Shown here piece after piece: positions 17,914 through 55,559 of a stretch of 64,000 bases of DNA. This stretch comes from Lytechinus variegatus. Its lineage: Eukaryota; Echinodermata; Echinoidea; Temnopleuroida; Toxopneustidae. The notes beneath the pieces are model-generated. The model saw nothing but the letters and a program-made list of their open reading frames with translations. It had not been told where the DNA came from and did no database searches. A program made the translations under genes and the position numbers. The stretch is from positions 13,701,736 through 13,765,735 of the forward strand of contig NC_054741.1 of the NCBI RefSeq assembly GCF_018143015.1, written 5' to 3'. How positions within the stretch are numbered: position 1 is the first letter of the stretch; each line of letters starts with the position of its first letter.

Positions 17914-18067
17914 TCACAATTTATTGACCATATCAACAGCTTTCTTTGCTGCCTTAGCGCTTGGATGATCCCCAAGGAATAGATCAAAGACACGGTGGGC
18001 TTCTTCAAACTGGAACTTGGCACGTTGGTACATCTTATTTCCAAAGAACTGCGCTCCAAGGTTGTAT
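17914..18067 (-). CDS. Large gene, coding exon 35 (last)
   Basis: This exon encodes the last residues (to 1912), a TPR-like helix pair ('LGAQFFGNKMYQRAKFQFEE' and 'AKAAKKAVDMVNKL'), and the TGA stop. The acceptor is 'aattcatag' and the entering phase is 2. Confidence 0.88.
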
Positions 18068-21000
18068 CTATGAATTGAACCAAATAAATTATTATTAAAC
18101 AACTTGAATGTTTTCATAATTATCTTTCACAACCTCTAAGATGTTTTGTAGCTGATAAAAACCTTTCTGAACATTAAACAATGTTTTCAAAAACTTCAGA
18201 TTAATTGACAACATTTTGTTTTGTTGAGATTGTACTTAACAAAAGCAACATCTTTATTTTAGTAATTCCATAATATCATCAACCATTTTGTATGTCGCTG
18301 CTCATTTTCTCAACACCAGCTTCACAAATTTTCATACATATTAATACAAGACTGATTAAAAAAAAATCCCCACATATGGGAAAGGATATTGTATATTTTA
18401 TGGCATTTCCCAGTCACTTGAAAAGTCTTCATGCAAAACTGCCAATGTTTACAAATTTCATTACCTAACAGTCGCTACATCCACATGATCCTTGCCATAT
18501 GCCTCAAGTAAGATTCCTAAAGCCAACTTGAAAGTCTTCTCTGTACCATTATCATTCATATCATCCTGCACCAATCCAATATTGTTCAAGATGGCTGCTA
18601 TGTGAGGATGATCAGATCCGCCTTCTTTGAGGGTCTCGTTGAAATCAAAGGTATGGCAGGCGATGGCCTCCTCCAGCCGACTTTGGTCGTACAGTATTTC
18701 TCCAAGCTGTCAAAAGGAATTCATGTCAATTTACTTCCTGTGGATATTAAGAGGCAACCCCCATGCTTTAGCAGTTTCTAGCACTATCTTTACTTGATAT
18801 CCAAAGTGTTTTAATATCAATGGCCAATTTACACCTTGCAAAAATTGTATCAGGAGGAAATATTTCTTGTTAATTATTCATTCCTCTTTCTGTCAAGTAA
18901 GAAAGTCATTCTAGGTTGCACACATACAAGCCATTTAGGATGCATTCATATGATTCACATGATTTCATACCAAACAACACCCACATGCTATAGCATAGTC
19001 CCCAAACCTGATTTGATTTTTTTTTTCAGTTTGAAATGATCAATAAATAATACTTTTTTTCAAATCCATGTCCTGCATTATAAACATGGTATATAATGCA
19101 GGACAAGGTTTTACATTCGAACCTGCTCAGTGGTTCTCGTATAGAAGGACCACCTGTAAACATGTTTGGCTTCACTTGAAACATTGTAACAAGTATAACA
19201 GGATAAAACAGGAACATGTTCATAAAGACCACAATAAAGGCTCTAGGGGCTTGTTGCTGAAAGAGTTGCAATCAAACACAACTCCAAGAATCAAATGCAA
19301 CTGTATTTTCAACCAATGAAACATGCATATTGGGGCTTGTGCTTGATTTTAAAAATTTAAATGCAACTAGAAAGACTGCTTTCGTTTTAAATCTTTGGCA
19401 GCATTCATAACAGCTTTCACTGTATCTTACAAATAACTATTATACAATGACCTTGCACTTAGCATTTGTAATTACTGAACACAAATACTGTGATCATATA
19501 CAAGGTAAACTACCTGTCCAACCAGAGCAGCTGTATAATGATGATCAGGACCAACAACCTCTTTGCTCACACCAAAGGCTCGCATCAGTACCTTCTTGGC
19601 AAAATCCACATTCCCTTGCCGACGTTTGACGGATCTATATGCATAATAAAAAAACAATCAAAACTCTTGGAGTTATAAACATCTGAATGAAAACTTGACA
19701 TTCTGTCCAAATTTAATTTGTATAAAATCTGGGGGTGTTTCACGAAGATTTAAGTATGACTTAGAGTCGCACTTTAATACCGAGTTGTGTACGTTATGAA
19801 AGGCTTGACCGTATTGGTCAGAACGTGTCATGAGGGCGTGCACTTCTCTCAATAACATCGTGCGTTGCATATCATGTATGTGACGGCACTTAAGTGCGAC
19901 TTAAGTCATACTTAAATCTTTGTGAAACACCCCCCGGATCCCACTATGTTCAAACAAAACAAGAAAAAAAATGCACAGTGTCTCATTAAGCACAAGTACC
20001 GATTGTCAAATCAGATCAGGGGGATGTTTCACAAAGATTAAGTGCGACTACAAGTTGCACTTGAATTCATAGTTGTGTTCTGTATAAAACGCACCACAAC
20101 ATTGGTTGAATCATGCTCTGTGGACACATGCTATTGCACATTAATCAATGAGATTATGTGTTAAATATCATGTGCATGACTGCACTAAACATGACTATAA
20201 GTTACACATAAATCTTGTGACCCCCCCTCCCTCCATCACATTTCAAACTTAAAGGGGAAGTTCACCCTTAAGAAAACTTTGTTGCAAATATAGTAGAAAA
20301 AATAGTAAACAATATTGGTGAAGGTTTGAGGAAAATCCGTTAAAGAGTAAGAAAGTTATTAGAGTTCAAAGTTTTGGATTTGTGACGTCATAAACGAGCA
20401 GCTGCCCCATGTGTTATATAATAGAAAATGCATAAATTTCAAATTTTGCATTGTTCCTGATGACTTAATTTTGTTTTCTATTCATGATCGGGTTTGAAAT
20501 GATTTGTCTATTGATATACAAAAGGTACAGTGAAAACTATTTTCAATTTTCTGAGAAAATTACATTTCATTTATTTTTTACCATTCGCTATGTAGGAATG
20601 CTGCTCGCATATGACGTCACAAATCAAATAATTGAAATTCTAATAACTTTCTAATTATTTGATGAATTTTTCTCAAACCTTCGGCAATATTTTTAATTAT
20701 TTTTTCTGCTATTTTTACAATAAAGTTTTTGTCAGGGTGACTTTCGCCTTTAAGCTATATGATTAAGTAACCAAGAACATGTCCCCATGGTGTACATACC
20801 TCACAGCTAATTATGTAATGATATAAGCATCAATGAAAATGCATACTCACACTAAGGTTATGACGGCCTTGACTAACTGGAGTTTCTGCTGTGGAGTCCT
20901 GACCTTGTTCAGCCTAGAGAGGGCGTCCTCCAGGTGTGCCTCAGCAGGGTCAAACTTGCCTTGCTTTAGACACACATTTCCGAGTTCTATTAACACCTGG

Positions 21001-24000
21001 GGTTTTACGCAAAGAGATAAGGATGATATTCACAATCAGGGGAAAATACATGGGGGCTTGGGGCAAATTCCCCCCTCCCCCAACAAAAAATGCCCTTGAA
21101 TCCCTGCAAAAAGAAAAAAAAAGAGCCTCTAAAATTCTCACAGGGTCCAATGTAACTGTAGTGAATTGAACAGGTAAGCACAAAAGTAGCCCTGCATGTT
21201 TTGGTTTTTTTTTCATTTCCATTTTTGATTGATTGTAACTTTATGGATTGCCATAGATTTACTGTCATTGAGGTATTAATGTTGAGCAGATTAATGGGAT
21301 ATTAACAAGTATTGTAGTGAGTATATTATAAGAATGCCTATCAAAATATTGCATCCTGGATAAGGATTGAGGAAAAAATTCTATCCAGTAAAATATATTT
21401 CTGTTGGATATTCTCCACATTGTAACTGTCTTGCAGCATAATCAGTCATTTAATCTAGCAATGAACTAAAATGGTGGTATGCATTAATAAATTTTTATCA
21501 CTATCCAATTCATAATACATTCTCTATTTCTTATTCTTTATATGATGGATTTTTTTTTACAAACAGGTAATGAAATAAATAAACTTACATCAATGACGGT
21601 CGGATAGTTGCATTTGTGTTTCATGCTGTAGTTGAAATGATGTTGTACAATGGTAGAATGTTCAGCAAGGTACCTCAGCTCAAGCTCCTTCAACAGACGT
21701 TCATTCAAGACTCTAAAGAAAGAGAGAAATCAACCAAATTGGTTGATAGAAATTACTAGACAGCCAAATCTCGAACACGGTGGGGTGTTTAAAAAACAGT
21801 AAAGTCTGACATAAACTCATGCTCGAGTACTAGCAGCACAATCTGAGCATAATCTGACCAATGTGGTGAAATCTTGTTAGTGTGATTCAGAGTTTAATCT
21901 TTATTATTTATCCTCAAGTTTTTCCTATTTATTAATTTAGATATAGAAAATTGTCATGAGTGTGTTGGTACAAGATTTTGAAAAAAATGATATGTGTAGG
22001 TACTCTTATCAACGAGGCATAGTCGAGTTGAATGGAGCGTGTCTCTTTCAACGAATGTGAAATATTGTATCTTTGCATGAATAGGCATATTCGCCATTTG
22101 TGTTGTCAAATAAGAAGTGCTGCGGAGGATATTTTATTTTTCTTACAAAGGGTGCTTGTTATAGGTCAACATTATTCATATGGCAATTAAGTATGTTCTG
22201 TGTATTGTATTGAGAACAAAAAATTGATTTGAATTCCAAACATCTTTACGAAGCACCATCAAGGTATGGTACTGACCTGGCCCCTCGCAGTAACCCAAGC
22301 TGCATAAAGAACACAGCCATGGACTTGATCAGTTCAACCTTGTCCCTTGATTCTTCCCAGATTTCAGACCGAGAGAGGACGTCAAGATAGGCTTGCTCCA
22401 CTGGTTCAAAACCTCCCAACTATAAGGAGATTTTAAAAATATACAAAATAATAATAGGAATGTAAAATGAAAATTTGAAACAAATAATAATAATTGGCAA
22501 GATGTTAGTTAACATAAGATACTATTAAACTGGCTTTAGCATGGTTACCCTGATCAGACACTTGAGCATTCAAGAAATTTCTTCCTACTGGGTACCCTTT
22601 AAGTACATCATGGTGGATCATTACAAATGTAGATAACTGCCTTGCTTAAGGTAGCAAGTGCTGCGGTAGGATTTGAACCCCGGACCTTGAGGTTCAAAGT
22701 CCGGAGACTTATTCACTAAGCCACAAGACAATGTAAGTTTTACAGGCAGTGGGATATCTGGAAAAATCTTGCCTGTTTTATGCTTACAAATAATAATTGA
22801 GAGTACAGCAATACTGACAATATGTCACTGAAATGTCCAACAATTTTTTCCCCCCTTTTCAATAACCTTTATGTTGAAAGTTCGATCGATTTCCCATTCG
22901 GAAACATATACCTCATATGTATTTTTTTAAGGGGGGGGGAGGGCTTTGTGTGTGCTCATGGTCCTGAACTAAAGAAGTTGAACCTTCCCAGCAAACATTC
23001 TAAAAATAACTAAAGGTTTTCTGAAGGTTGACTGATGAATAAAAGGATTATGAAATATCACTGTTGGCTGGGATCTTACTGTTCTCCAAGCTTTGATGAG
23101 CTGGAAGTTTCCGTCTTCTGTTTTCATCAGGATCTGGAACACGTTGATATTGAGGATGGTTGCCCTGAGACGTGACAGCTCCCTCGCTTGACATAATAGG
23201 TAAGGGACCTCATCAGCCTAAAGAGAAGAGAGTAAACAGTTGAGATGTGTGAAATTCTGAGCAGAAGTAGGATTTCAGATGGTCAGAACATCTTCATGCA
23301 AATTGTCTTACAAACTCTTCTGGTTTTGTTTCCAAATTCTACCAAATTTTCAAAATTAATTTCTACACAGATATGTCAGACACAAAAGTTGAAGTCAAAG
23401 TTTGTACCCTTTCAAATGACACCAAATTTTCATTGATTCAAAGTCAAGGATGAAAATCATTTTGAAATACATGTAGGAATAAGCTTCCCTTTTTACCTTT
23501 TCTGTTATCATTTCTCAAATATGTTTGCAAAGATTTAATGATAGCATGAGAATGAATCCTTTCCGCAATCTGAAATTTTCTTTCATGTAATCAATGGCAG
23601 CATATAGTAAGTTAAATATATTTTGAATACTGTATTGTTCCTATTAACTTTGAACAACAGTCATGACCATATCCAGCTTCCTAATGCTATCTTATAAATT
23701 AAAAGTCTCTTCAGCAATTATAACTGCCATGTCAACTGTAAGAATTAATGATCACTGTATGTCCATATTTTTTGGGGGGATGCAACAATTTTTTTATGGA
23801 AATGAATAAAGCTAAATTGAATTGAATCAAATATAACCTTGATTTCACAACCGAAGTCCAGCAGGTCAAGGATAACTTACATATCGATCATCAATATCTT
23901 GTGCATTGAAGAAATTTGCCAGCTCCAAGTACCTCTTGCGTTTGTCCTCCTCTGTGGGGAGGTAGCGACTCTCAACGGCTTGCCTGAGGTGATCATGGAA

Positions 24001-27000
24001 GAAATTCACCAGTCCATTCCGATTGATGAGATTTTCCTCGAGTGAGAGGTAGAAAGGAGACCAGACTGCACTTGGTACCTATGAAAGTGATAGATTAATA
24101 ATTAAAAAACTGTTGAGCGGCAGCTCTAACTTGGCAGCCTTGGGATGTTTGCCTAAGGTGCTAGAGAAACTCCAACAGTTTTTAACAATAAAAACCTGAG
24201 GGCAATTCATGCTGAATCTACACTACAAGTGCAAGAGGTGGGGACACACACACTCCTCTATATTTTGCCCATTATACATATCAAAATAGCTGAACATAAG
24301 AAAATTTGTTCTCCGCACCCACTCTATTTATAAAATGGTGTATGTAACCCTTCTGTTTAAGATCCTTGACCTGCCATACCTCATGCTAGAGTTCATGCAC
24401 ATCAATCCAACTCATATTGATCAATACAATAATCACTGTAGACAATGGAAGGATAACATCCTTTCTTCTTATCCCCCAGGAATGAATGTAGTTGGTTCAG
24501 ATGGAATTTCATACTCCAAACTTTCCTTAACAGTAACAGTTGGTAGTTGTGATCATTGCATACTGGGCATGCACTCACCTTGAGCAACATCAGGAGTTCA
24601 TTCTCACCCATTCATCGATGTGAAACTACCTGCAATCTGTGGGAGTGGCAGCTTCAAAATCTATTACTTGATTATCCCCAATGTATGAGAAGTTTTCTGT
24701 GTTATCTCGGTTCATCATTATCACTCAATAATATCTCACCTTGAGCATCGTCAAGAGTTCATTTTCACTCATTCCTCGATGTGAACACCAGATAGCTGTA
24801 GTTGTATCCTTCACAAGATTAGGTCTGAGTATGGATATAGCAAAACAATTATTTTTTATATAGAAATATGAACGAGTATAGTATATTAAGAGCAGAGATA
24901 TATTAGAAGAGACAAATAACTAAAAAAGACAAACACCAAGCTTTGTCTTGCATATTTCTGAAGTGATCTAAACTGGTAATACCCTACAAGTTTAAAATTA
25001 CTTTTTTGAAGGCTTATGATGCAGTATAGGAACCTGGCAAGATTAATTCTGTAAATGTACTGAATGCTGGGAGGAGTGAAAGCCGGTTTAATAATAATCA
25101 TTTTCGTACTTCATCGAACCATCATAGACTATATGTGTTAGACCAAGAGGATATTAGACAAAATGGATAGAGCCTATTCTGAAAATCCAACATAACAGTA
25201 AATGGGCAAAATGGCAAACAAACCAAATGGTGAACAGCTAAATGTTTAGATGAAGTGGTTGTAGACGGACTTAGGTTAGACCATATGGGGTGAAACAAAG
25301 TGGAAAGTGGGAAAAGTTGGTGTAGACCAAGCAGCATATTAACTTCTCAATAATCATATTCCTAATGCTTGAATTTTGGATTCCCCAAAATATATAAAAG
25401 ATACCATGATTAATGCTTGGTGTTGAGTACTCTCAGGATTAAAGTATAGGTGTGATGACACAATAAGGGTGCAACGAACATGCATGTAATGTGAAACATA
25501 CAAATTAATCCTTTGTCAACATTCTGTTATTTCCATGATAGTCAATAATTACCTTGACACAGCTCCCGTCTCAAAATCGTTTTCCAGCCTCTGGAGGATC
25601 TTGACAAAGAGGGCGCCAGGGTCATCCGCTGCTAAGTAACTCTTGATGGCGGTGGTGAGCTGGGAGAAACTGCCGTACATCCGAACCTTATCAGGAAAGA
25701 GGAGTAAACAAGTCACTCATGAGTCAAATGTATTACACCCTCCAACCTACACCAACCCTCCTACTTTCCTCCTTCATTTACTTCTTTCACATCTTCTTTA
25801 GATGTCCCCACTTCATCATACCACCCAATTCAAGCTCAAAAGCATTTCTCAAGGCATACCTCTCATCCCTCCTCAGAACATACCCTTACAATGCCCACAC
25901 CAACATACCCCTTTTTGCTTTCGGCAAACGGTCCACTGCTTAGAAATCTGTGTTACCATGAAAACAAAATTATTTAACTGAAAAAAAAAGTCAATCTACC
26001 TCATCCAGCAGAGCCTTGAGGTATAGAGGATTTGAGCTCTGTTTTGAGGTGAGGATAAGATCCATCTGTTCCTGATTGAGAGTCTTCCCATAAAGATCCA
26101 TGTATCCTGTGATAATGTCCAGCTTCTCTTTCTCCTGCAGGGCTTCAACCTTGTAGGTTGGCCATCCGGACGTTGTAACAGCATCATGGCACTAGATCAA
26201 GAGTAGGAAGATTGGATTACTCTCTGAAGTAGGCCCCACTATTGCCTTTATACTACTAAAAAAGCATGTTAAATTGTTGATTCAAAGATATATAGTGCTT
26301 AACAGTTTATCAGAAGTATCTAAGTACTTTACAAAAATACAGCATATTAGGTGTAAAATAGTTGGATATTTGTTATAAATCTATCTTTAAGGTCCTTTCA
26401 TTTTTCATCCGGAATGAAAACAAGAAAAAGAAAAGACACATTCCCACATGGTGCAATAAAGCTCAATAAAATGGAGAAAAATTGGGGTTGAATGTACAAA
26501 ATTGATAATTTTATAGAATTGCTCATACATGCTATGTGTGATTGTCATGGGTGGTATTCACTCAAAACAAACTTGGTGTTAAGTCCAGACTAAAAACAAA
26601 ATTTAGTCTCAACTTCTATTGAATGCTAATATTTACACCAAAGAAAATCTATTTTTTTCAACAGAAATTTGCTCAAACTTGCATTTATGTTTGCCGTCTC
26701 ATTTCATTCCTATATCATTTTTGTACATGTCTCCTGGTAGGATTAAATAGGCAAGCAGAAATAATCTGAACTGGGTGAATGAGATTGCAACAGGCCCTAC
26801 ATGAAAGTATGGCTTCAGTTAACATAGGGTTAATTCATGCAGTGCTTTGAGAGTACCACCCACTGAAATCAAAATGAATGAAAAAAATTGAAATATACAA
26901 TAAGGTAGACAGTTACATACATACCCTTCCAGGAAGAGTAGATAGAAGCATTTGCAAGTTAGGAGGTAAATTCTTTGGCAACCATGTCAAGCTCTTCTCA

Positions 27001-48000: not shown

Positions 48001-51000
48001 TTTGTCATTTTTGACCTAAGATGAGTATTGCCCAAGCCTAATCTTAGACTTTCATGTATACACAACAAAAAAAGTAAGTCCCCCCTAAACAAACATCAAT
48101 AATTTCCGAACCAATGCGAGTTTCTGATATATTTTTACATGAGCGTGTAGGAAATTTTATAAGCTACCCTCTGAGTAAATGTTGTGGATGTATCTTACGT
48201 CATGCTTCAGTGAGCACCGTCATAAGGCAAAATTGTCACTTTTCAAAAGTCACAAGCAAAATATCATGACTTCCGCGGCCCCTGCAATACATCGTGCTCA
48301 CTCAACCATGAACATACGATATCAAATTTTGGTCTGAAGTGGTTAAATGATGGATAGTAAAAAAGCATAACACCATAAAATTCACCTAAAAACAAGTTTT
48401 GCCCAACTTTGTATTTGCACAATCTGAAAAACGACTCTTGTGACTTTCAAAAATGGTCATTTTTAATTCAATCTTTAATTACTCATGCATGACTCAACCG
48501 ATCAATCTCATTTTTCCCCAGGAATCGCTTAATGAGTGTAGAAAACCACCCATGAAATATCATATCTTAAAATAATTCAGTTCAAAAGTTACAGCAATTT
48601 GATTTAGGGGGGACTTACTTATTTTGTTGTGTATATATGTACATATACATACATGTACATACAAACATGATGAAAATCTCATTCTTTATCGTATTTTCAC
48701 AAAGTTAGCATCCAATATTTTTACAAACTTCCAAGTGCCTATGATCGATACATGGATCTACATCATGTAGGCAAGTTTTTGCAAGGTTCAGTTTGAGGTG
48801 GGGACACAACCTGACTCAACACTTTGCATTACTACCACGCATAAAAGCATCCCTACTTAATAACTGACTCGTAGTGCCTCTCCAACTTAAAGTCACTAAA
48901 TTATTTATTTGAAAACTAATAGATTGGTCATATTCTTCTAAGGGTACTTTGAGAAACCAAAGGATATTGTTCTTGATGTGCAAATGCCATGGATATTACA
49001 AAAGTCTCTCTAAAAGATGAGAAGCAGCATTTTACAGGACAGACAGGACAATGATTACCTATCGTTTGGGTCTAGAACATCTTCTGGAATGTTTGAGAAT
49101 AGTGAATAGCGGCATGGCCCTTTAGGTCCAACAATCTGAAGGGCTTTCTTGTCGGTCATAGTGATGGTCCACACGTCTGCAGATTGCAGGACACCGGACA
49201 TTCCAGCAATGTAAGCAACACCAGCTTGACCTTTCATCAGGGTCACCTGAAAGTCCATAACAATAAAACATGACATCTTCTTGCATACTACTACTACCAT
49301 TTAATTGGTCGCCAGGGTATAACGACAATAGTTTAAATAATTTTCATCAAGTTTCCTGGATTATTAGAAAAAGAAAAAAAACTTATTTACATGGCCAACC
49401 ACTGGTCACAAATAATGAGCGCACTGACTCAGTCGAGTGTCCAAGTAGAGCACCTATGACGTGCATATCAACAGAGCTGAATGATGCACTGTCACCGGCA
49501 TGGCCGTATTTGTCATGTCTTGAGAGACAATGTTTAGAATTCATTAAATTTGAGCATACGGTAAATATAATTAGTTATCATGCACTTAGTTTTTAAACAT
49601 CAAAGATTAATTTTACTCCCAGGCATAATGAAATCTAACATCTAAAGAGGGGAAGATGAAATAAAAGACTGCTATGGGTAGGTGGCCTTTAAAAAGACAA
49701 GTGTTCATACCAACATCTTGATACCTGATAAAGAGCTGATGTTGTTGAGTCTTCGTCCTGTAAGCTATGAGAACACATGACCAGCATGGACCGGCCTACA
49801 AAGTTAGAGGTATCCTCAAGGAGAGTGGTTGGGTTGATCCCGCTAAACTCCTGGAGATGGACAACCTTTCCTCTAGGTTTGTCATGGTGATCCTCTGCAA
49901 AGGCAGCGCTCTTGCTGTGAAACACTACAAAGTGACTGTAAGATGGCCCACAGAGTTCGAGTGTTTTTCCATCGTAGGTCCTCATGGTAAAACTGTCACT
50001 TCCATCAGGCACCAAGGGAACCTTGACATGGGAATAAACTTTTTATTTTTCTTTATTGTCCAATTCAAATAATGATTAAATTTACCTGAATTGTTGGAAA
50101 ATATAATAAAGGTAAAAGTATTTGGTGGTAGGTGAGTATTCTGTAGAGCTTCTACAAACTGACAATTTACAACCTAAATGATATACTGTACATACAATTT
50201 TTTTGTATTATTATATTTTGTTATAATTTTGATGATTCAAATCAATCTATGTCATGGTCCAATCACATCATTATTAAAGAACCTTAACATTCAATGGTAA
50301 CTACCATAGTTTACAATGATCAATAGCCAATCAAACTCAAAGATTTCATGGACGTTACCATAGGATGGGAAAGTTACCATAATAGCAACTCATATGGAAA
50401 CAGGCCCATGTCTATAATTTCATGCATATATTAGGGTAACTGATTCAAAATTGATCAAAGTTTAATTTCTTCAGAGATTGACTACAAAAATTATAGATTA
50501 TGTAATATACGACAAGTGTGCCAATGTTGTCAAGTACTGCCCTATTATTAGAAACCAGGGGGGGGGGGGGTATTCTGAAAAGTCTCGTAAGTTTCCACTT
50601 AAATATCCTTTTAAGTTACCCATTTAATGGAGCGCTAATGTACCTCCAAATTCGTATTCTGAAAACTCTATTAGCGCTCAATTAAGTCCCTTTAGGCCAC
50701 TCCCCTACTGAGCCGAATTAACCAATCAAATGCGCTCTTACAACGTAAATTTTTCTCCTAGCGCGCAGTGTCTCTTCACTTTGCTGCCTTGCAGCGCACC
50801 GCCCGGCTGCTGCAGGTGCACTGCACCACGATCTTGATACAAAGAATTTTTGCTGAAAAATAATGCTTAAGCATATTTGCATCGGAGATTAGAGGTTCGT
50901 TATGTTGTTGAAATTAACTGTTGTCTTTTCCCTTTCTCTCTCATTTATTGTACCTTTGTGCTTTTCTCTTTTTTTCGAACGCGTTCTGATTTTCACAACC

Positions 51001-54000
51001 CCCTATCCATTGAATCCATTTGTAGCTTTCTTTCTTTTTCTTTTCTTTTTTTTTTACAATATTTTATTTGCCTCTGTCTCGGGGCCATGATAGGGGGAGG
51101 GTCTTCTTTAACTTAATTCCTACTTATTCTAAAAACTACATACTTTTCATTTATATGAGAAATCTTCTCCAACAAAATTTGAATAAACATATTTTAAAAA
51201 TCAAACAATCATAATTTTAAAAAAGCCGAAATTTTATTGAAATTTGATGTACAAACATTATGACATAGGTTTTTATAGGTGGAGAAAACGATGGCATCAC
51301 TTCACTATTTTTTCTTTTGTATTTTATTCTATATTCGTTTAAATACTAAAGGGGTCTATGCTTATTTTTTCATTGTCAGAAACAAGGTTTAATTCACTCC
51401 TGCACATTGCTGCATCTGCCGTGATTTGGCAATTTCATTATTGTCAAAAAAGTGTGCAAAAACAAAATAGTTTATGATGCTAATAATAAAAGAAAATATA
51501 GAAAAATAATAGTCATGTTTTCCCTATAAGTACACAAATATTTCTGTCTCCTTTTTCCCCCTTTTCTAATTTATTTATTACCAAATATAGTCCCTAGGCC
51601 CTATTCCTTATTTTACTTGTTTCTATACACCACCTTTTCCCCCTTTATTCTATTCCCTTTTTAGCTCTCTCCTTTATTCTCTTCCTTCCTCCTAGTATTA
51701 AACCGATTTGATATTTATACGAAATGAAAGCAACATTTAGCAAGATATGGTGAGACTTAAGGGACCTCTTATCACCATTATCTTTCTCCACTTGAAAATC
51801 CGCTAATTGAGCGCTATGAGACTTTTCAGAATACCAAGTCTCGTAACTACTCAATTAAGTCTTCGCGCGGTCATAACGCGTATAGTATTGCAAGTGCGCG
51901 CAACGCAACCCTGCCAAATAAGGAAAGGGGCACTTAAGTGACTTTTCAGAATACCAAAAATGCTAATTGAGCGCTAACTGACCGCTAATTGAGCTTTCAG
52001 AATACCGCCCCAGGGTGAGGGCTAAGATTGTGCCCTTCCAACTTTTGCCACTGAGGCAAAATGCTACAATCGTTCGATTTCAAATGTTGACATCGCTAAC
52101 TGTGTTTGTTGTTCAGCAGATTAAATCTTCCTCTTCCCCTCCCCTTTTATTCCTTCAAATGTCTTTCATTTGCATCCCTTTGAATGTGGTGCCTATGACA
52201 AGGGCATTGTTTGCCACAAAGTCCTTGATACTATGTTACATCATACTCACCGGTTTGACATGGCCATCTCGCTGAAAATGAACAAGGTATGTCTGACTCT
52301 GTACTGCTCCTGACTTATTAGGCTGGGCGCTGCATATCACCAAAGCACACGAGCCGTCTGCGTCAGATACTGAACTGATGGGAGGCGTCGGGACAATGCT
52401 GGCAGATGAATTTAAGATTCCGGCCTTGGGCCCTTCGAACAAAACCCCGCAACCGCCATGGCCAAACTGCACCAAGTTGGAGAGGACAGTGGCATGGGAT
52501 TTCCCAAAGAGCAACTTTGGTTGGAGGAATCCTTGAGGGTCGGTGAAGACCTCGTTCCAATTGTAGATACTGTGTTCACCACCTTGAGCCAATGACTTGA
52601 TGGAATAGTGGTTGCCATCAAAACCGCATCTAAGCAAAGTGATTTCAGATGAATCGCTGTCTTTCTTGCCTCTTGTGAGCATAAGTAAGGCAGTTCCCCC
52701 ACCATGTTTTGCATTGACATTAAACTTGGCGTCGATGAGGGACGGTAGAGGAAACCCACAAAGAGTAGAAGCTTCAACACAAGCATGATTGGCTGAGAAG
52801 TGCATATAAAAAAGAGTGCAAGACATTTGATTTACTTTAAAGACATTAGGCAACTATATCCTTTTTTACTTACTTCCCCAAGTTTGCACCTTCTCTTTCC
52901 ATAAAAATTATTTAAAAAATATTAGTATTTCAACTAAATCTGATTATAGATGCTAGAAAAATCACAAAGTTAAGATATATTACAGGCTCTTAATTTCCTC
53001 CATAATTCCACACACTTTTATGTCAATAATTATGTTTTAATCTTTGAATCTTCAATATCTTCCAACTTTAGCTTTATACTAAATCAATATATGAAAATTT
53101 ATATCTCAAGTGGATGAGATCTGTATCCACTTTTAGTATAATGAACAGTAGGTCAGACTCCATGAAGGTCTAACTACAGTTTGTATAAAACTAGTTTGTC
53201 TCCTAATAGCCATATAGTCTAAAGTCCAATTGGTTCCAAAAACAACTCTTCTAATATGCTGTTTGGCTAACCTCATTTAGTCTAATCAAGTCCATGGTTA
53301 ATTTGCACCTTGGCAAAGATGTATTGGTAATTAGACCAAGTGATTAATATGAACAGGAAGCCATTAAACCTTGTGGCAACTAGACCAAGAGCCAGTTAGA
53401 CAAAATGCAATGGAGCAAATTGTTCAGCCCGAATGAAGACAGCACATATCTGGAAATTAGACCAAGAATATCTATTAAGGCATGCATGACCGCCCTTTCT
53501 TTGATTCTAAATGCATTTCTTCATCATTTTTACCCCTCAGCTACAGTTAAATTTGATCTTTTTAGATAAAATTCTCATTTCCAACAAGTATCTGAATGGA
53601 CATTCATTATATTCAAAACTCTGTTAATAGGCTCATATATGAACCGTACTCTCATTATCTTAAAACAGAGCAACATTAGATTATCCCACTGAGTACTAGA
53701 GAGGGACACCAGTCATGTATGTCCTACAAACAGCTTTATGAAGTAGGCTCCATGGCCCTGTCTTACAAAGAGTTGCAATTGATCCAATCAACAACTATGG
53801 ACGGCCAGCAAAGTCAATATCTAAAATGCAAATTTGTTAAAAATATTTTCTACATAACATCGTTCCCTTGAAGATTCAGTGTTCATCTCAGTCTTTGTTA
53901 TCTATTGTGCAAATTTCCTGGAGAAAAAAATTATGGTATTGATGGATTTCCATACAGTTGAGATTGATTGGATCGATTGTAACTCTTTTTTAGATGGGGG

Positions 54001-55559
54001 CCCAGGTTATTCAGGAGCAAGCATGCATGAATTGGATATTACTCACCAACAGCAGGAGAGGATGGCGGTTTGGGAGGAAGATTCAGATCTACTTTCTTAA
54101 CATCAACTTTTGCAGCTAAAACAATACAAAGAAAGGCAGAAGAAAGTAATTACCATTTTCAAAGAAAGAGTACAATAGCACCACACTACACATTCATCCA
54201 GCTAAAAGTTTCAACACAGAAATTCTATCACATTGAATAGAAATCAGAATTGTATGAGTGGATATTATAAAACTAAATAAAACAAAATGAAAAGTTTATT
54301 ACATTCCGTTTGAATTTACCAATATTTAGCATTTAAAAATGTAGCATTTGTGCTCTGGAAATATCATGATTACATCAGGTTACAATCAATTTAAATGATT
54401 ACAATATCATACCGGAACTTTAATTCACTTTTTACTTGACCAGGTCATTGTCTATATCATTTTCATGTTTGTATGTATGATTGTATTGCATCCTTGTATC
54501 TAAAAAAAAAAAAATTTTTGAGATTGTACATTTCCCTTATTTCTCATAATAACTCTGTAAACCAGAGATAAATGAGTGATGAAAAACAGGAGAGATTTAA
54601 TCTAATGGGTAACTCAGAAAAAGATTAAGTAAATTAAGTAGTAATCATCTACTAATCTAACAGGTGTTGTTAGAAAATCACTATTCCAAGTCAGCTTTAC
54701 ATCATAAAATAAGTCATAAGTGTTGTCAATCAATAAGTATTGAAATTTTTTATTAGAAATAGACAACATCTAGCTTAGTATCCTGTAGGTAAAATGTGAC
54801 CAGCCACCCCTGAACCAAGAAAACACCTAAAATAATTTTTAGAATGATATATAACTTCTTAAAGTTGATCAACAATAAACAAACAATCACAAGTACTGAT
54901 TGAATTAAAAAAAAAATCAAAGAGGTTAATTAAGGAGAAAGCACAGTTTGAAGTTGGGGTTCAAGCATGAGATGTGCACACTATGCAATCTCTGTGAAAC
55001 TTCCAAGCAGTACACCAAAAATGGGGTCTAAGAAATTATTGTATATTGTGCTTGAATTATTCATTAATACAATGTCAAAATATTACAGTATTAAGAAGAC
55101 TTACTCTTTCAGAAAAAGAGCCAATGTTCTTTTTTTAACATCAAGTTACTTTTTTTTAGCTATATTTACAGACAATCTTCCCTGGCAACTTAATGTTGAT
55201 TTTGGGATGACTGATCATAATTGGTCTAAAGATTCATAAAAATTTGCAATTCAAATGGCAAATGGTTGCGAATAAGATCCTTAGGACCTTTATCCTGATC
55301 AAGCCAAGATATTAAGCATATGAAGTCTGGAACAAGGAAGTTTCCTCTCCAACAAAAATTTGATAATCAGCAAACATAAATCACTTCTTACTATTATCAT
55401 GGACATGAATGATATCATAGTGTACTCACAGGCTGTAACTTTTGCAAGCTGAGCTGCTCTCTTTAGCTTGGTGTTCTGTCCTGCAAGTTGGAAAGCAGCA
55501 ACGGCTTTTACTTTCTTGGAGGCTGTGTCCCCTTGGTTCTTGGAGACCTTGGTTCCCAT
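17914..55559 (-). CDS. Malectin / FBA / DUF4062 / NACHT / TPR multidomain STAND protein, 35 coding exons, 1912 aa
   Basis: Thirty-five GT-AG exons (listed separately) join without a frame break to 5739 coding bases. The layout is as follows. Residues 1-43 are basic, with MGTKVSK at the start. Residues 44-66 are proline-rich. Residues about 67-410 are an unclassified beta-rich region with internal repeats, and 410-515 a further unclassified stretch. A malectin-like domain spans about 519-690 ('YALNCGGPAY', 'DYMLRLHAVG'). A charged linker leads to an FBA domain at about 727-876 ('WSQNLLENASGE', 'DGGDGTEK', 'FKDYGRGLRTINF'). DUF4062 begins at about 956 ('RVFVSSTFRDFEEERE'). The NACHT P-loop is GESGSGKS at 1225-1232 and Walker B VMIVLD at 1310-1315; helical NACHT-associated segments follow to about 1560, then TPR-like helices to the end. 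No signal peptide or membrane segment is seen, so a cytosolic location is inferred. The DUF4062-NACHT-TPR order is that of nephrocystin-3-like proteins. Function is unknown; glycan sensing by a STAND switch is my inference. The ATG at 55559 has a GCCATGG context. Confidence 0.85.
18465..18706 (-). CDS. Large gene, coding exon 34
   Basis: These 80 codons are TPR-like: 'LGEILYDQSRLEEAIACH', 'HPHIAAILNNIGLVQDDMND' and 'KTFKLALGILLEAYGKDH'. The last two match the kinesin-light-chain/nephrocystin type of TPR ('HP.vA..LNNIG'). The acceptor is 'ttttgacag' and the donor GTAATG. Confidence 0.88.
19514..19634 (-). CDS. Large gene, coding exon 33
   Basis: This exon encodes 'SVKRRQGNVDFAKKVLMRAF' and 'GVSKEVVGPDHHYTAALVGQ', a TPR-like unit. 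It enters in phase 2 and leaves in phase 0 with the donor GTAGTT. Confidence 0.87.
19731..19936. mobile_element. MITE family C, copy 1
   Basis: The inverted arms start 'gggggtgtttcacgaagatt' and end 'aaatctttgtgaaacacccc', and continue through 'taagtatgactta'. It is about 205 bp, in intron 32 of the large gene, with a related copy 80 bp away. Confidence 0.75.
20019..20228. mobile_element. MITE family C, copy 2 (diverged)
   Basis: It resembles copy 1 in its ends ('gggggatgtttcacaaagat' and 'aatcttgtgaccccccc') and in its interior ('cttaagtcgcac'-like arms, 'tcatgtgcatgactgcac'). The right arm has lost several bases. It has the same orientation as copy 1. Confidence 0.65.
20248..20754. mobile_element. 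Inverted-repeat element, about 0.5 kb
   Basis: The left end 'cttaaaggggaagttcaccc' and right end 'agggtgactttcgcctttaag' are imperfect inverses. The termini resemble those of the 12931-14175 element. An inner inverted pair surrounds 'tgacgtca'. It is non-coding and in an intron. Confidence 0.65.
20851..20996 (-). CDS. Large gene, coding exon 32
   Basis: These 48 codons, 'VLIELGNVCLKQGKFDPAEA' then 'HLEDALSRLNKVRTPQQKLQ', start the clear TPR-like array ('LG......G.f..Ae..le.AL'). The acceptor is 'aaaccccag'. GTGAGT is the better of two overlapping donors and is the one that keeps phase 2 into exon 33. Confidence 0.87.
21589..21712 (-). CDS. Large gene, coding exon 31
   Basis: This exon encodes 'RVLNERLLKELELRYLAEHS' and then 'TIVQHHFNYSMKHKCNYPTV'. 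It is helical and links the NACHT-associated region to the TPR-like array. It enters in phase 2 and leaves in phase 0 with the donor GTAAGT. Confidence 0.86.
22277..22419 (-). CDS. Large gene, coding exon 30
   Basis: This exon encodes 'LGGFEPVEQAYLDVLSRSEI' followed by 'WEESRDKVELIKSMAVFFMQ', a predicted helical repeat unit. The acceptor is 'ccttatag' and the donor GTCAGT, which is less common but in phase. Confidence 0.85.
22505..22735 (-). repeat. tRNA-derived SINE
   Basis: Read on the minus strand, the head 'gtcttgtggcttagtg...' ends in a B-box-like 'ggggttcaaatcctacc', with the stem 'ctccggac'/'gtccggg'. The body continues towards 22510 with 'gggtacccagtaggaagaa'. The layout of a tRNA-like head with an unrelated tail is typical of SINEs. 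It lies in an intron of the large gene. Confidence 0.55.
23080..23217 (-). CDS. Large gene, coding exon 29
   Basis: These 46 codons in phase 0 read 'ADEVPYLLCQARELSRLRAT' and 'ILNINVFQILMKTEDGNFQL', a helical post-NACHT segment. The acceptor is 'tctctttag' and the donor GTAAGA. Confidence 0.87.
23881..24078 (-). CDS. Large gene, coding exon 28
   Basis: These 66 codons include 'WSPFYLSLEENLINRNGLVN' and 'FFHDHLRQAVESRYLPTEED'. The 'W.P....LE..L..R.GL..FFHDHLRQAVE.RYL' pattern is characteristic of the region after NACHT in nephrocystin-3 and TEP1-type proteins. Phase is 0 on both sides. Confidence 0.9.
24574..24624 (-). pseudogene. Decayed partial copy of exon 27
   Basis: These 51 bases match the 3' part of exon 27 and its donor with 6 mismatches (about 88%). 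Read in the exon frame, the GGA codon after 'SHR' has become TGA, so inclusion would stop translation. It lies in intron 27, 116 bp beyond the real exon. Confidence 0.75.
24740..24824 (-). CDS. Large gene, coding exon 27
   Basis: This exon encodes 'RPNLVKDTTTAIWCSHRGMS' and 'ENELLTMLK', the 'WcS.rGmsE.ELL..L' winged-helix-like segment that follows NACHT in this family. It enters in phase 2; the donor is GTGAGA. Confidence 0.88.
25100..25340. repeat. Diffuse 'tagacca' interspersed sequence
   Basis: Short phrases such as 'ttagaccaagaggatattag', 'ttagacaaaatgg' and 'tagaccaagcagc' recur, and they also occur at 53150-53470. This suggests two old copies of one dispersed repeat. Ends are not definable. 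Confidence 0.35.
25553..25686 (-). CDS. Large gene, coding exon 26
   Basis: This exon encodes 'VRMYGSFSQLTTAIKSYLAA' and 'DDPGALFVKILQRLENDFET', a NACHT-associated helical segment ('elf..il.RLE.dfe'). The acceptor 'cctgataag' is weak in pyrimidines, but phase and homology fit. Confidence 0.85.
26000..26191 (-). CDS. Large gene, coding exon 25
   Basis: These 64 codons in phase 0 include 'EALQEKEKLDIITGYMDLYG', 'KTLNQEQMDLILTS' and 'SSNPLYLKALLDE'. The last matches 'nPLyLk.lleELR' in related NACHT proteins. The real frame differs from a longer ATG-started frame in the same place. Confidence 0.88.
26925..27004 (-). CDS. Large gene, coding exon 24
   Basis: This exon encodes 'GDEKSLTWLPKNLPPNLQML' and 'LSTLPGR', the conserved 'L.WLP..LP.n...i.St.pg' strand after Walker B. 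The acceptor is 'ctgttcag', and it leaves in phase 0 at 'agg|gtatgt'. Confidence 0.88.
27067..27229 (+). mobile_element. MITE family D, copy 2
   Basis: It shares layout and most bases with the copy at 12392 ('aaaggacttgtcagacg', 'ttgtcagatctgacaact', 'aatgaaacacccccc'). It sits in the intron just upstream of exon 24's acceptor. Confidence 0.72.
27761..27930 (-). CDS. Large gene, coding exon 23 (Walker B)
   Basis: This exon encodes residues from R1271, including 'LEIPTSDRNLVIDLPSWLSI' and Walker B 'KVMIVLDALNQL' (VMIVLD 1310-1315). That is the NACHT hallmark of nephrocystin-3-like proteins. It enters in phase 2 and leaves in phase 1. Confidence 0.9.
27952..28010 (-). pseudogene. Decayed partial copy of exon 23
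   Basis: In the minus-strand frame it reads 'NPTWLSITSIRSKVMIVV', against 'LPSWLSIVSNRSKVMIVLD' in exon 23. The catalytic aspartate position and splice sites are lost. It lies in intron 22, about 20 bp upstream (in transcription) of the true exon. Confidence 0.7.
28594..28751 (-). CDS. Large gene, coding exon 22 (Walker A)
   Basis: This exon encodes 'NPLTIIGESGSGKSALIANW', with the P-loop GESGSGKS at 1225-1232, then 'FLFKHFIGSSAESASHLNLL'. Lysine 1231 and serine 1232 of the P-loop are present, so nucleotide binding is expected. The acceptor is 'cattcccag' and it leaves in phase 2. Confidence 0.9.
28930..29097 (-). CDS. Large gene, coding exon 21
   Basis: These 56 codons in phase 0, with 'EAHDAFANARRRVYIGRQEY' and 'FDYIDNYFSKKPK', make up the pre-NACHT 'H..f...R...YiGR...' segment known from this family. 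The donor is GTAAGA. Confidence 0.89.
29578..29715 (-). CDS. Large gene, coding exon 20
   Basis: These 46 codons in phase 0, 'AEKKELKGETQWHFDLQQKL' and on to 'AAAMIRE', link DUF4062 and NACHT. The acceptor is 'catgttgcag' and the donor GTTTGT. Confidence 0.85.
30554..31488 (+). mobile_element. 0.93-kb element with inverted ends and internal repeats carrying DR1 sites, copy 1
   Basis: The start has 'gtctcacctgcat' and the end has the inverse 'atgcaggtgaggc'. In between are about four degenerate units of 155-190 bp. Each has 'tgacctttgacct' (30764, 30917, 31080, 31272) followed by 'gtgacctgaaac', 'ttcagtgatacttgattac' and 'ttatgatggtaattcaaca'. A GC block 'gacgccgccgccgtcgg' precedes the right end. 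No transposase frame is seen. It lies in intron 19 of the large gene; copy 2 is at 55671. Confidence 0.75.
31639..31758 (-). CDS. Large gene, coding exon 19
   Basis: These 40 codons, 'LEVVHGAIRPHDELKKDKIF' then 'FYLREHRVKREDLPPPVKTE', form the end of the DUF4062 region ('LEi.hG.l......FY.R'). Phase is 0 on both sides; the donor is GTAAGC. Confidence 0.88.
32733..32903 (-). CDS. Large gene, coding exon 18
   Basis: These 57 codons continue DUF4062: 'IDKCRPYFICLMGDRFGWSQ' matches the conserved 'id..rPyFi.llGdRyGW' strand. Phase is 0 on both sides; the donor is GTAAGT. Confidence 0.9.
32941..33325. repeat. Interspersed repeat, about 0.38 kb
   Basis: The left side has 'gtgtcgctacggcgagcaca' and 'taatacgcccgcc'. 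The right side has 'gacaccgagcatgataacat' and 'cccgtctagacggg'. Two 'gacctcaaaat' phrases occur within. I recognise the style of a dispersed marine-invertebrate repeat; the family name is unknown to me. Confidence 0.45.
34295..34563 (-). CDS. Large gene, coding exon 17 (DUF4062 start)
   Basis: This exon encodes residues 930-1019, including 'REIRVFVSSTFRDFEEEREI', 'RLCLDRGAFFTYVDLRWGIT' and 'CLRE'. The 'vFvSSTf.Dm..ER..l' and 'vDlRWGit' motifs define DUF4062, which precedes NACHT in NPHP3, TEP1 and NWD1-like proteins. The acceptor 'atttcaaag' fits the required phase. Confidence 0.92.
34895..35370. repeat. Possible inverted-repeat element
   Basis: 'ctgttccactgcgccgattt' on the left and 'gtgatagtggaatggtctc' on the right are loosely inverse. 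The interior is more GC-rich than the intron ('ggcgatccggcgatc'). Ends are uncertain. Confidence 0.35.
35595..35825 (-). CDS. Large gene, coding exon 16 (end of FBA)
   Basis: This exon encodes residues 853-929. 'GHDDKGWAGHFGIRMSAAVV' matches the last strand of FBA domains ('.YWKGWfGarV...sV'). An acidic linker 'SGDEYSDVETITPEDRKHEI' follows, and a helix. At the place where sugar-binding FBA proteins have Tyr-Trp before KGW, this protein has Asp-Asp (855-856). Confidence 0.88.
37437..37638 (-). CDS. Large gene, coding exon 15 (FBA)
   Basis: These 67 codons include 'GTCKGGYYNLTVTLMDKNDQ', 'VTPGWIKEAFTFKDYGRGLR' and 'TINFTSV'. They match FBA strands ('.gc.Yel.v.Ll', 'W.e.shtF.dYGpGvR.v.F'). It enters in phase 0 and leaves in phase 1. 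Confidence 0.89.
37829..37887 (-). CDS. Large gene, coding exon 14 (FBA)
   Basis: This small 59-base exon encodes 'HIVLTQHFSEEHLDTAPEIQ', matching the FBA segment '...eelLD...P.I'. The acceptor 'aaatcacaag' is modest and was chosen because it gives both phase and homology. Confidence 0.78.
38138..38395. repeat. (TTTA)n-rich low-complexity tract
   Basis: About 250 bases are dominated by 'tttatttatt' with 'cttac' and 'ttcat' interruptions. A related short tract is at 39520-39562. It yields a long aromatic open frame that is not a gene. Confidence 0.85.
38820..38892 (-). CDS. Large gene, coding exon 13 (FBA)
   Basis: These 24 codons, 'NGDMTRWNYGGEFKIVDGGD' and 'GTEK', carry the FBA signature '..GG.DGW' region. 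The acceptor is 'gtttgatag' and the donor GTGAGT, in phase 1. Confidence 0.86.
39171..39341. mobile_element. MITE family B, copy 2
   Basis: The left arm 'gtttcataaagctgttcgtt' and right arm 'acagctttatgaaacaccc' are inverse. The interior shares 'gactggtgatcctttcttgt' with the copy at 11018. Confidence 0.72.
40484..40582 (-). CDS. Large gene, coding exon 12 (FBA start)
   Basis: These 33 codons, 'LADKLLPLNRTFSLKEMKIA' then 'GWSQNLLENASGE', match the opening of FBA domains ('.r.NLL.NP.GE..'). Phase is 0 on both sides. The upstream position, where F-box proteins of this type carry an F-box, is occupied by a charged helical linker. Confidence 0.88.
41043..41149 (-). CDS. Large gene, coding exon 11 (end of malectin-like domain, linker)
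   Basis: This exon encodes 'VGGDVCVSGILVYDKNFKEP', like the last malectin strand, then the charged 'TPEEQEKETKTKQE', probably helical. It enters in phase 1 and leaves in phase 0. Confidence 0.85.
41840..41954 (-). CDS. Large gene, coding exon 10 (malectin-like domain)
   Basis: This exon encodes 'LLKQLETKGHIHAVGTTAKT' and 'CEVPITVGDEGTTLTFQT'. It has no internal ATG and is easily missed, but it restores the phase between exons 9 and 11 exactly. The acceptor is 'ttttgttgtag' and the donor GTGGGC. Confidence 0.84.
43294..43395 (-). CDS. Large gene, coding exon 9 (malectin-like domain)
   Basis: These 34 codons, 'LPLQAGDYMLRLHAVGADLT' and 'KSRIYDNSSDYTSQ', match the malectin core 'v..G.Y.v.LhFaE...'. 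Phase is 0 on both sides; the acceptor is 'ccattcacag'. Confidence 0.87.
43759..45035. mobile_element. TTAA-flanked element (piggyBac-like non-autonomous), 1.28 kb
   Basis: TTAA at 43759 and 45032 flank the perfect termini 'ccctaaaaagactggg' and 'cccagtctttttaggg', followed by G/C runs and 'ggccttttgggcc' versus 'ggcctaaaaggcc'. TTAA target duplication with CCC-type ends is the piggyBac hallmark. No transposase frame remains. A direct repeat of about 230 bp lies inside (about 43955-44185 and 44319-44550). Confidence 0.82.
45081..45243. mobile_element. 163-bp insertion with 5-bp target duplication
   Basis: CCTAG at 45076-45080 and 45244-45248 flanks a segment with inverse ends ('cataaaactttttacctgag' and 'ctcagctaaaaagttttaat'). 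The intact relative at 58038 lacks this block. Confidence 0.75.
45596..45738 (-). CDS. Large gene, coding exon 8 (malectin-like domain)
   Basis: This exon encodes 'GLKCINKFGCHTPQNRNLYA', 'LLGNTYDPYLFSTHNRTHNG' and 'FVDTMKFP', matching the malectin pattern 'i.nT.D..Ly.t.R....Y..pv'. The acceptor is 'tctcctctag' and the donor GTGAGT. Confidence 0.87.
46513..46677 (-). CDS. Large gene, coding exon 7 (malectin-like start)
   Basis: This exon encodes 'NGADVSIELGDSPHQVIKEP' and 'GVAYALNCGGPAYEALNGVV'. The '.A.NCGGpAY....g..f..D' pattern is the malectin opening. It enters in phase 1 and leaves in phase 1. Its 5' edge is part of a 70-bp tandem duplication that continues into the intron. Confidence 0.88.
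46641..46950. repeat. 70-bp tandem duplication spanning the exon 7 acceptor, with decayed extra copies
   Basis: 'ggaatcccctagttctattg' through 'ccatctaatagtaacaag' occurs at 46644 and again 70 bp later almost unchanged. Two or three weaker copies follow to about 46950 ('gccctagtttgatagataca', 'cccctagttcagaagatata'). Each near-perfect copy carries exon sequence plus its 3' splice site. Confidence 0.85.
46971..47230 (+). mobile_element. MITE family A, copy 3
   Basis: 'tgccccgtcttataaagagt', 'aatggaaatccatcagtgtc' and the terminal 'gattgatcggatcaatcgca' match copies 1 and 2; the right end is eroded. It lies in intron 6 of the large gene. Confidence 0.72.
47510..47775 (-). CDS. Large gene, coding exon 6
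   Basis: This exon encodes residues 409-497, including 'CLATGDSETIEGGLIIDDDN', 'LTVWVDSMTKVLVTCDGVTI' and 'ERSTGLKFYRAFAVVKDI'. It is beta-rich and I do not recognise it as a known domain. The acceptor 'ggatgcag' completes the AG of exon 5 in phase 2. Confidence 0.85.
48061..48631. mobile_element. 571-bp element with TA target and near-perfect 26-bp inverted ends
   Basis: The left end 'cacaacaaaaaaagtaagtc' and right end 'gacttacttattttgttgtg' are inverse with one or two mismatches, then 'cccccctaaa' and 'tttagggggg'. TA flanks both sides (48059 and 48632). There is no transposase frame. This fits a mariner/Tc1-mobilised MITE, which is inference from TA. Confidence 0.82.
49059..49246 (-). 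CDS. Large gene, coding exon 5
   Basis: This exon encodes residues 347-408: 'VTLMKGQAGVAYIAGMSGVL', 'WTITMTDKKALQIVGPKGPC' and 'RYSLFSNIPEDVLDPND'. It is the back half of the third internal repeat of the N-terminal region. It enters in phase 0 after the acceptor 'ggactttcag'. Confidence 0.86.
49725..50021 (-). CDS. Large gene, coding exon 4
   Basis: These 99 codons in phase 0 include 'FTMRTYDGKTLELCGPSYSH', 'FVVFHSK' and 'FVGRSMLVMCSHSLQDEDST'. They hold the end of repeat 2 and the start of repeat 3. The acceptor is 'cccatgtcaag'. Confidence 0.85.
50558..52012. mobile_element. Inverted-repeat element, about 1.45 kb
   Basis: The left end 'ggtattctgaaaagtctcgt' and right end 'gagctttcagaataccgccc' are inverse. 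The sub-terminal phrases 'ctattagcgctcaattaagt' and 'gctaattgagcgct' recur on the two sides, with up to three inner 'ttcagaatacca' copies at the right. No coding frame is recognised. It lies in intron 3 of the large gene. Confidence 0.75.
52251..52792 (-). CDS. Large gene, coding exon 3
   Basis: This is the largest exon (542 bases) and encodes residues 67-247: 'GGGTALLMLTRGKKDSDSSE', 'ITLLRCGFDGNHYSIKSLAQ', 'GSCALVICSAQPNKSGAVQS' and 'YLVHFQRDGHVKP'. It is beta-rich with no recognised family. A repeating '[GC]xALLxL/ALVIC ... YLVxF' pattern starts here. It enters in phase 1 after 'acttctcag'; the donor is GTGAGT. Confidence 0.88.
53150..53470. repeat. Diffuse 'tagacca' interspersed sequence, second copy
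   Basis: 'attagaccaagtgattaata', 'actagaccaagagccagtta' and 'ttagaccaagaatatc' echo the stretch at 25100-25340. It is non-coding and lies in intron 2 of the large gene. Confidence 0.35.
53754..54004 (-). mobile_element. MITE family A, copy 4 (inverted)
   Basis: It has the same ends and interior as copies 1-3 but in opposite orientation: 'atggacggccagcaaag' lies at the left and 'tgatggatttccatac' at the right. It lies in intron 2, about 40 bp past the donor of exon 2. Confidence 0.72.
54047..54115 (-). CDS. Large gene, coding exon 2
   Basis: This 69-base exon encodes 'AKVDVKKVDLNLPPKPPSSP', a basic then proline-rich linker with a PxxP-type stretch. It enters in phase 1 and leaves in phase 1 with the donor GTGAGT. 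Confidence 0.84.
55430..55559 (-). CDS. Large gene, coding exon 1
   Basis: This exon encodes residues 1-43, MGTKVSKNQGDTASKK and on to 'LKRAAQLAKVTA'. It is strongly basic with alanine-rich helical potential. Gly2 with Ser5 fits the N-myristoylation consensus. The ATG sits in GCCATGG. An AG (at about 55596) upstream could be the acceptor of a 5' UTR intron. The donor is GTGAGT. Confidence 0.84.

Follow-up and report, generated by a model that had tools for sequence, protein, structure and literature searches.

The minus strand of a 64,000-nucleotide stretch of Lytechinus variegatus DNA (the window) carries a gene of 35 exons that is predicted to encode, in one polypeptide of 1925 amino acids, three beta-sandwich repeats, an Ig-like domain, a malectin-like domain, an FBA domain, a TIR-like DUF4062 domain, a NACHT ATPase, and a TPR region behind a myristoylation-type start (Table 1). 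The reading that we place just on the probable side, drawn from sequence comparison, is that of a membrane-tethered cytosolic STAND receptor whose NACHT would cluster a TIR-like NADase, with the lectin-like array, the TPRs, or both acting as sensor. In such a receptor, myristate would anchor the protein to a membrane from the cytosolic side, a ligand would bind the N-terminal array, the C-terminal TPRs, or both, and ATP-dependent clustering of NACHT would bring the TIR-like domains together. The initial annotation had proposed a new STAND receptor or scaffold made of malectin, FBA, DUF4062, NACHT, and TPR modules. A single multi-module STAND protein was indeed found, with a malectin-like part beside the other four modules, but that reading was incomplete: it did not include the three repeats, the Ig-like domain, or the start of myristoylation type, it did not recognize DUF4062 as TIR-like, and the protein has relatives across phyla.

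Table 1. Positions of the STAND gene, its parts, and neighboring features in the window
Feature	Position	Strand	Description
Whole gene	55559-17914	minus	35 exons, 34 GT..AG introns, one open frame
Start and stop of gene	ATG at 55559; stop codon ends at 17914	minus
Exon 1	55559-55430	minus	Start codon, MGTKVSK..., N-myristoylation-type motif; identical in second copy
Exon 2	54115-54047	minus	Basic/proline-rich tail; AG/GT, phase 1-1
Exons 3-5	52792-52251, 50021-49725, 49246-49059	minus	Three related beta-sandwich repeats (predicted)
Exon 6	47775-47510	minus	Ig-like domain (predicted), residues about 415-498
Exons 7-11	46677-46513, 45738-45596, 43395-43294, 41954-41840, 41149-41043	minus	Malectin-like domain
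Exons 12-16	40582-40484, 38892-38820, 37926-37829, 37638-37437, 35825-35595	minus	FBA domain, then linker
Exons 17-19	34563-34295, 32903-32733, 31758-31639	minus	DUF4062, TIR-like, catalytic-type Glu1091
Exons 20-21	29715-28930	minus	Helical link from DUF4062 to NACHT (AF2 model of P0030)
Exons 22-28	28751-23881	minus	NACHT ATPase with the helical stretch behind it; Walker A GESGSGKS (K1244)
Exon 26, corrected start	25686-25553	minus	27 nt more, encoding VRMYGSFSQ; same residues in P0001
Exons 29-35	23217-17914	minus	TPR region to stop
Arrestin-domain gene exons	6865-8595	minus	Arrestin_C E 2.9e-9, Arrestin_N E 6.4e-18
tRNA-like sequence	9852-9923	minus	72 nt, anticodon TCA; ARAGORN, SeC; Rfam tRNA, 47 bits

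The exon chain was built from stop-to-stop frames, a splice-site search, and inspection of doubtful gaps. The genome comprises 869,567,369 bases in 33 contigs, and the window lies on contig C2 (84,614,468 bases). Exon penalties of -14, -18, and -22 gave 49, 38, and 32 exons, respectively, and searches with too low a penalty, which gave 192-207 exons, were discarded. The final chain was chosen by visual judgement of its splice sites and of the continuity of its domains, with one later correction from homologues. This correction came from comparison with a predicted protein of L. pictus (P0001), which is equal in length to the 1925-residue product and 97% identical to it over 100%: nine residues were missing from the first chain and were located in the DNA as a longer exon 26, starting at 25686, not 25659. 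The 35 minus-strand exons joined in phase at 34 junctions, as originally described, were thus reproduced in a chain predicted from genomic DNA, with a single stop, but the 1912 codons counted at the time became 1925. The Pfam scan of the joined product used a 1916-residue form.

Because the introns are long and the gene model was read from genomic DNA, adjoining lectin-like and STAND genes might have been joined in error, an artefact that we consider hardly credible. The same domain order, which the initial annotation had suggested seeking in other genomes, is present in long proteins from echinoderms, hemichordates, amphioxus, molluscs, and a nemertean. Several long relatives lie on contigs that barely exceed the open reading frame (P0003, 1937 amino acids on 5965 nt; likewise P0025, P0026, and P0028), which we infer to be cDNA contigs. 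A second copy of the gene, also on C2 and about 2.08 Mb off, retains 35 of 35 exons and 34 of 34 AG/GT junctions, its only stop is the last codon, and its one length difference is of 3 nt, in exon 27. A further paralog, hereafter paralog B (LOC121407396, C2:14.39-14.43 Mb), has 34 of the 35 exons in order, 30 of these 34 being of the same length; the mapped starts of its exons 4, 17, and 20 are without AG, and the end of its exon 16 is without GT. On the evidence of the long relatives of the same order and of the second genomic copy, separate genes were rejected. Because the second copy keeps all exons, paralog B is mostly collinear, and relatives occur on contigs of open reading frame length, comparison of the predicted sequences confirmed the chain from the lectin-like part to the TPRs as one real, single, and conserved gene.

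Between the gene and its second copy, 35 synonymous and 9 non-synonymous changes were counted in 1896 codons of the 34 same-length exons (dN/dS 0.07), a value that would describe polymorphism and not divergence if the second copy is the other haplotype; per-region counts are small, the FBA domain having 0 synonymous and 2 non-synonymous changes. The pooled frame of paralog B is broken, and therefore only same-length exons were compared, giving dN/dS 0.20 over 1588 codons (0.07 to 0.65 by region). The two values point to purifying selection on the protein overall. Identity to paralog B is patchy, with exons 5, 23, 28, and 31 at 95-98%, many others at about 65-80%, and dS between 0.28 and 1.48 by region, a pattern that looks like gene conversion between neighbors. 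Positions 10368-58532 of the window are collinear with C2:11630206-11676303, flanks included as far as fetched; this second-copy region is mostly 87-99% identical, introns included, with a few pieces at 76-82% and with insertions. Elsewhere in the genome, two DUF4062 places on C3 score equally, and a relative on C8 occurs twice with near-equal scores. Such doubled loci would be either uncollapsed haplotypes in the assembly or a segmental duplication. Exons of an arrestin-domain gene lie about 9 kb downstream of the STAND gene. The tRNA-like sequence, at 72 nt shorter than the usual selenocysteine tRNA, could represent a pseudogene, a SINE piece, or a tRNA that reads UGA.

The first residues of the product, MGTKVSK, fit MGxxx[ST], the usual N-myristoylation pattern. 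An MG start was found in 16 of the 32 aligned proteins, this protein included, all 16 having Ser or Thr at position 6; in 8 of these the start is MGC, with which palmitoylation would be feasible as well. Starts of the myristoylation type occur in echinoderms, amphioxus, a hemichordate, and molluscs. Some of the 16 proteins without an MG start look truncated and others do not, paralog B starting with METNESQ. The protein is thus probably N-myristoylated, and since a myristoylated protein stays cytosolic, its malectin-like domain should not sit in the lumen of the ER. Exon 2 is identical in the second copy and present in the L. pictus protein, but no counterpart of it was found in paralog B. In front of the malectin-like part, an Ig-like domain and, before it, three related beta-sandwich repeats (residues about 62-177, 179-292, and 294-409) are predicted from the model of a relative. 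The repeats were recognized from an AF2 model of the homologous protein P0045, from VIA matches (best, T4 gp9, with its C-terminal-type beta-sandwich as candidate fold), and from profile comparison of the repeats with one another; at E <= 0.001, Foldseek of the N-terminal model returned a single match, and its TM was low. When residues 67-692 of the N-terminal part were used as query, two shorter proteins only were returned, the length range having left out the full-length relatives.

The malectin-like domain covers residues about 519-690. Pfam Malectin scored 12.0 bits on the joined product (cut-off 23, E 0.21) and 16.1 bits on this protein's own malectin-region fragment (cut-off 23, E 0.011); four single stretches of the region gave no Malectin, and the sole hit of this model in the genome lay elsewhere on the contig (C2:81.1 Mb), away from the window exons. 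Ten fragments were drawn from the 32 aligned proteins, of which nine matched Pfam Malectin at E <= 1, four of these above the cut-off, and one had no match. A profile of eight fragments, chosen from the ten after the Pfam result had been seen and including that of the window, ranked malectin structures in the top four places (2jwp leading, E 1.6e-4), ahead of unrelated matches that came next at E 0.22. On the strength of the fragment and profile results the domain is called malectin-like: the malectin part of the initial annotation is favored by the profile and by four of the ten family fragments, but this protein itself remains below the Pfam cut-off.

The FBA domain that had also been named was borne out by the HMM search of the joined product, in which residues about 731-887 scored 70.2 bits (cut-off 32.4, E 2.4e-19, profile 7-175 of 175). 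With the family profile, structures of FBXO2 (Fbs1) match the domain at E 3.1e-27, and comparison of the FBA domain in the model of P0030, a brittle-star relative (pLDDT 79.3, pTM 0.59), with 1umh (FBXO2) gave TMt 0.80 and rmsd 2.0. The N-glycan-binding domain of FBXO2 being its closest solved structure, the protein might serve glycoprotein quality control, with the malectin-like and FBA domains binding cytosolic N-glycoproteins that are misfolded or exposed, and with the STAND part working as an ATP-driven assembly or chaperone with no NAD+ chemistry. Y279 and W280 are reported to be important for substrate binding by FBXO2 (PMC12904710). Among the 28 FBA-bearing rows of the alignment, the W280-equivalent is kept in every one and Tyr or Phe stands at the Y279-equivalent in 18, as this reading would have it; P0003 and P0020, for example, carry the aromatic pair at both positions. 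Agreement does not extend, however, to F177 and K281, which we take to be further residues of the Fbs1 sugar pocket: the K281-equivalent is kept in 1 row and lost in 27, and the F177-equivalent position is occupied by His (15 rows), by Tyr or Phe (12 rows), or by Cys (1 row). The residues of this protein at the F177-, Y279-, W280-, and K281-equivalents are H, G, W, and A, and no F-box is among the 22 Pfam families listed for it at E <= 1, so it was rejected as an F-box protein. Because these residues depart from the Fbs1 pocket, its FBA domain was not filed as sugar-binding; to judge from the alignment, members of the family may bind glycans, although this one doubtfully does so, and a role in quality control is unlikely.

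DUF4062 scored 53.2 bits in Pfam (cut-off 24.7, E 3.6e-14), its best solved relative is the human TEP1 TIR structure 11gz (E 2.6e-17), and in the P0030 model the TIR-like domain has five strands alternating with helices. According to a 2026 preprint, the DUF4062 domains of bacterial Swarozyc (E97) and human TEP1 (E1008) are TIR-like NADases, with an activity that depends on this Glu and, for TEP1, rises with concentration (PMC13174449). When residue equivalence was counted along the 11gz alignment with the numbering of that preprint, R908, R954, R976, and E1008 of TEP1 aligned to identical R978, R1024, R1047, and E1091 in this protein. The Glu and the R976-equivalent, an Arg of the substrate site, are each found in 32 of 32 aligned family proteins, and the R908- and R954-equivalents vary (Arg in 17/32 and 9/32, respectively). 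The Glu is also present in all 8 DUF4062-NACHT-TPR relatives outside the family and in turtle TEP1 (P0040); it therefore signals that the active site is intact and does not set this family apart, and because it is common outside the family, the NADase receptor was weighed slightly lower and a scaffold slightly higher. A scan for the motif SVT..E found 5 of the 8 outside relatives and not P0040; as the alignment shows the Glu in all, the motif was set aside as too strict.

In the assay described in the same preprint, no NADase activity was seen for three purified human proteins with the same pairing of DUF4062 and NACHT, namely NWD1, NWD2, and NPHP3 (PMC13174449), and so architecture does not prove catalysis. 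The protein could instead be a scaffold and not an enzyme, that is, an NPHP3-like myristoylated, possibly ciliary or membrane protein with an inert DUF4062, whose NACHT and TPR parts would assemble partners, a possibility that deserves weight but is clearly the less probable one. It would fit the report of NPHP3 as a myristoylated UNC119 cargo (PMC9266639) and the match to TPR_NPHP3 (PF24885), although the latter, at 54 bits, is under its cut-off of 100, and the other Pfam NPHP3 model (PF25022) also stays below its cut-off, with 16 against 33 on the exon 17 stretch. Orthology to NPHP3 was rejected on these scores, and the nephrocystin-3 layout of the initial annotation is loosely right, but the active-site Glu of TEP1 is kept. 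The invariance of this Glu and of the R976-equivalent across the 32 family proteins also argues against an inert domain, though it would lose force if NWD1 and NWD2 keep these residues too; that TEP1 is the best solved relative is a weaker point, no NPHP3 structure being among those listed. The one trace of expression, which concerns paralog B, leans toward the scaffold: the mRNA of LOC121407396, listed as Unknown, is reported to be enriched in embryonic skeletogenic cells and to fall under treatment with axitinib and K02288 (PMC13200730). This enrichment, in a non-immune setting, counts against the NADase receptor, and a developmental or scaffold role is possible.

If the domain is catalytic, it might make a signal, for example cyclised or base-exchanged ADP-ribose, and not deplete NAD+. 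DUF4062 resembles both TIR and nucleoside deoxyribosyltransferase domains, and SARM1, AbTIR, and HopAM1 yield further ADP-ribose derivatives, whereas the only products reported for the TEP1 TIR are ADP-ribose (or its phosphate) and nicotinamide (PMC13174449), which makes a signal-producing enzyme quite improbable here. SARM1 and TEP1 are the human TIR domains counted as known to be catalytic in that preprint (PMC13174449).

The NACHT domain supports the STAND assignment, and TPR repeats are present behind it. Pfam NACHT scored 28.5 bits (cut-off 26.7, E 1.7e-6) and TPR_12 78.2 bits (cut-off 30.1, E 5.4e-22), with TPR_1 at E 5e-9; DUF4062, NACHT, and TPR, all proposed from the outset, are thus over their Pfam cut-offs in the joined product. 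The Walker A sequence follows GxxxxGK[ST], and its Lys and Ser are kept in 32 of 32 aligned proteins. Foldseek of the P0030 model found the STAND proteins Apaf-1, CED-4, Avs3, and EfAvs5 at low TM, and the TPR region matches kinesin light chain TPR structures.

Database searches were carried out to place the protein among its relatives. Scoring of 7983 candidates, preselected by shared words, returned 43 proteins at E <= 0.001, 31 of which (P0001-P0031) make up the family, from sea urchins, sea stars, brittle stars, crinoids, hemichordates, amphioxus, molluscs, a nemertean, and four more. No named vertebrate, insect, or cnidarian protein was among the matches at this threshold except turtle TEP1. 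A profile search with the family alignment (7990 candidates scored) gave 16 matches at E <= 1e-30 and brought in no further proteins than P0046-P0050, with coverage of the query between 23 and 49%. DUF4062-NACHT-TPR proteins with no N-terminal array are P0032 (named as bacterial), P0033-P0038, and P0046. A tree of the DUF4062-NACHT core, made by a quick method with 10 of 37 inner branches open and the long outgroup branches flagged, follows animal phylogeny in outline. Pfam FBA is found in 27 of the 31 family members. The four with no such match (P0025, P0027, P0029, and P0031) form one clade, three of them being from named sea urchins; all four have lost the FBA loop with the conserved Trp and kept the DUF4062 Glu, and the three of these paralogs with untruncated starts have no MG start.

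The initial annotation knew of no described protein with this combination. None was found in full-text searches of the open-access literature, although a description may exist elsewhere, but public databases from several animal phyla already list proteins built in this way, labeled as uncharacterised, as FBA-domain proteins, or with transferred names. The NCBI entry for the family member from Branchiostoma lanceolatum (P0019) bears the name TEP1, and further members carry names taken from Dictyostelium DDB_G0287407, on which nothing was found in full-text searches of the open-access literature; these names are probably misleading transfers. Work on the family would correct the names TEP1 and DDB_G0287407-like given to its members. 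If active, the protein would add a further branch of TIR-like execution in animals, link cytosolic glycan sensing to loss of NAD+, and offer a tractable model, in the sea urchin embryo and with expressed domains, for what animal DUF4062-NACHT proteins sense.

The family may be an old animal danger sensor. By analogy, a more specific and rather doubtful proposal is a bilaterian alarm for membrane rupture, in which the myristoylated receptor would patrol the cytosolic face of endomembranes. A broken vacuole, lysosome, or ER membrane, or a misplaced glycoprotein, would expose glycans; the malectin-like and FBA modules would meet them, as FBXO27 and galectins do; NACHT would cluster; and the TIR-like domain would then destroy NAD+. 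Were this true, cytosolic lectin danger sensing and NADase execution would be combined in one polypeptide, a link that full-text searches of the open-access literature did not bring up.

Parts of the protein can be compared with several known systems. Malectin, an ER-luminal lectin, is collinear with the family profile over most of the domain, whereas the domain here should face the cytosol and scores below the Pfam cut-off in this protein. The FBA domain is shared with Fbs1/FBXO2, FBXO6, and Fbs3/FBXO27, of which FBXO27 is reported to be N-myristoylated and to gather on ruptured lysosomes and endosomes (PMC6389600); these three are F-box ubiquitin-ligase subunits, whereas no F-box is listed for this protein and the sugar pocket is partly kept. 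The DUF4062-NACHT-TPR proteins outside the family (P0032-P0038 and P0046) share the core domains, the Glu (8/8), and the R976-equivalent (8/8), but in them the DUF4062 motif is located no more than about 21 residues from the N-terminus, so that they have no N-terminal array. NPHP3 carries TPRs, and the human protein starts MGT.., but it has a coiled coil where this protein has a long lectin-like array. DUF4062 and NACHT are likewise shared with NPHP3 (PMC13174449). Swarozyc (KpSwz) is a DUF4062 effector with a weak sequence match (E 0.012) and differs in pairing DUF4062 with an HTH/winged auxiliary domain that binds the phage portal (PMC13174449). TEP1 likewise has DUF4062 beside NACHT and is identical at R908, R954, R976, and E1008, but it also contains TROVE, vWA, and WD40 parts and has its role in the vault (PMC13174449), whereas this protein has a lectin-like array before the shared core, TPRs after it, and a myristoylation-type start.
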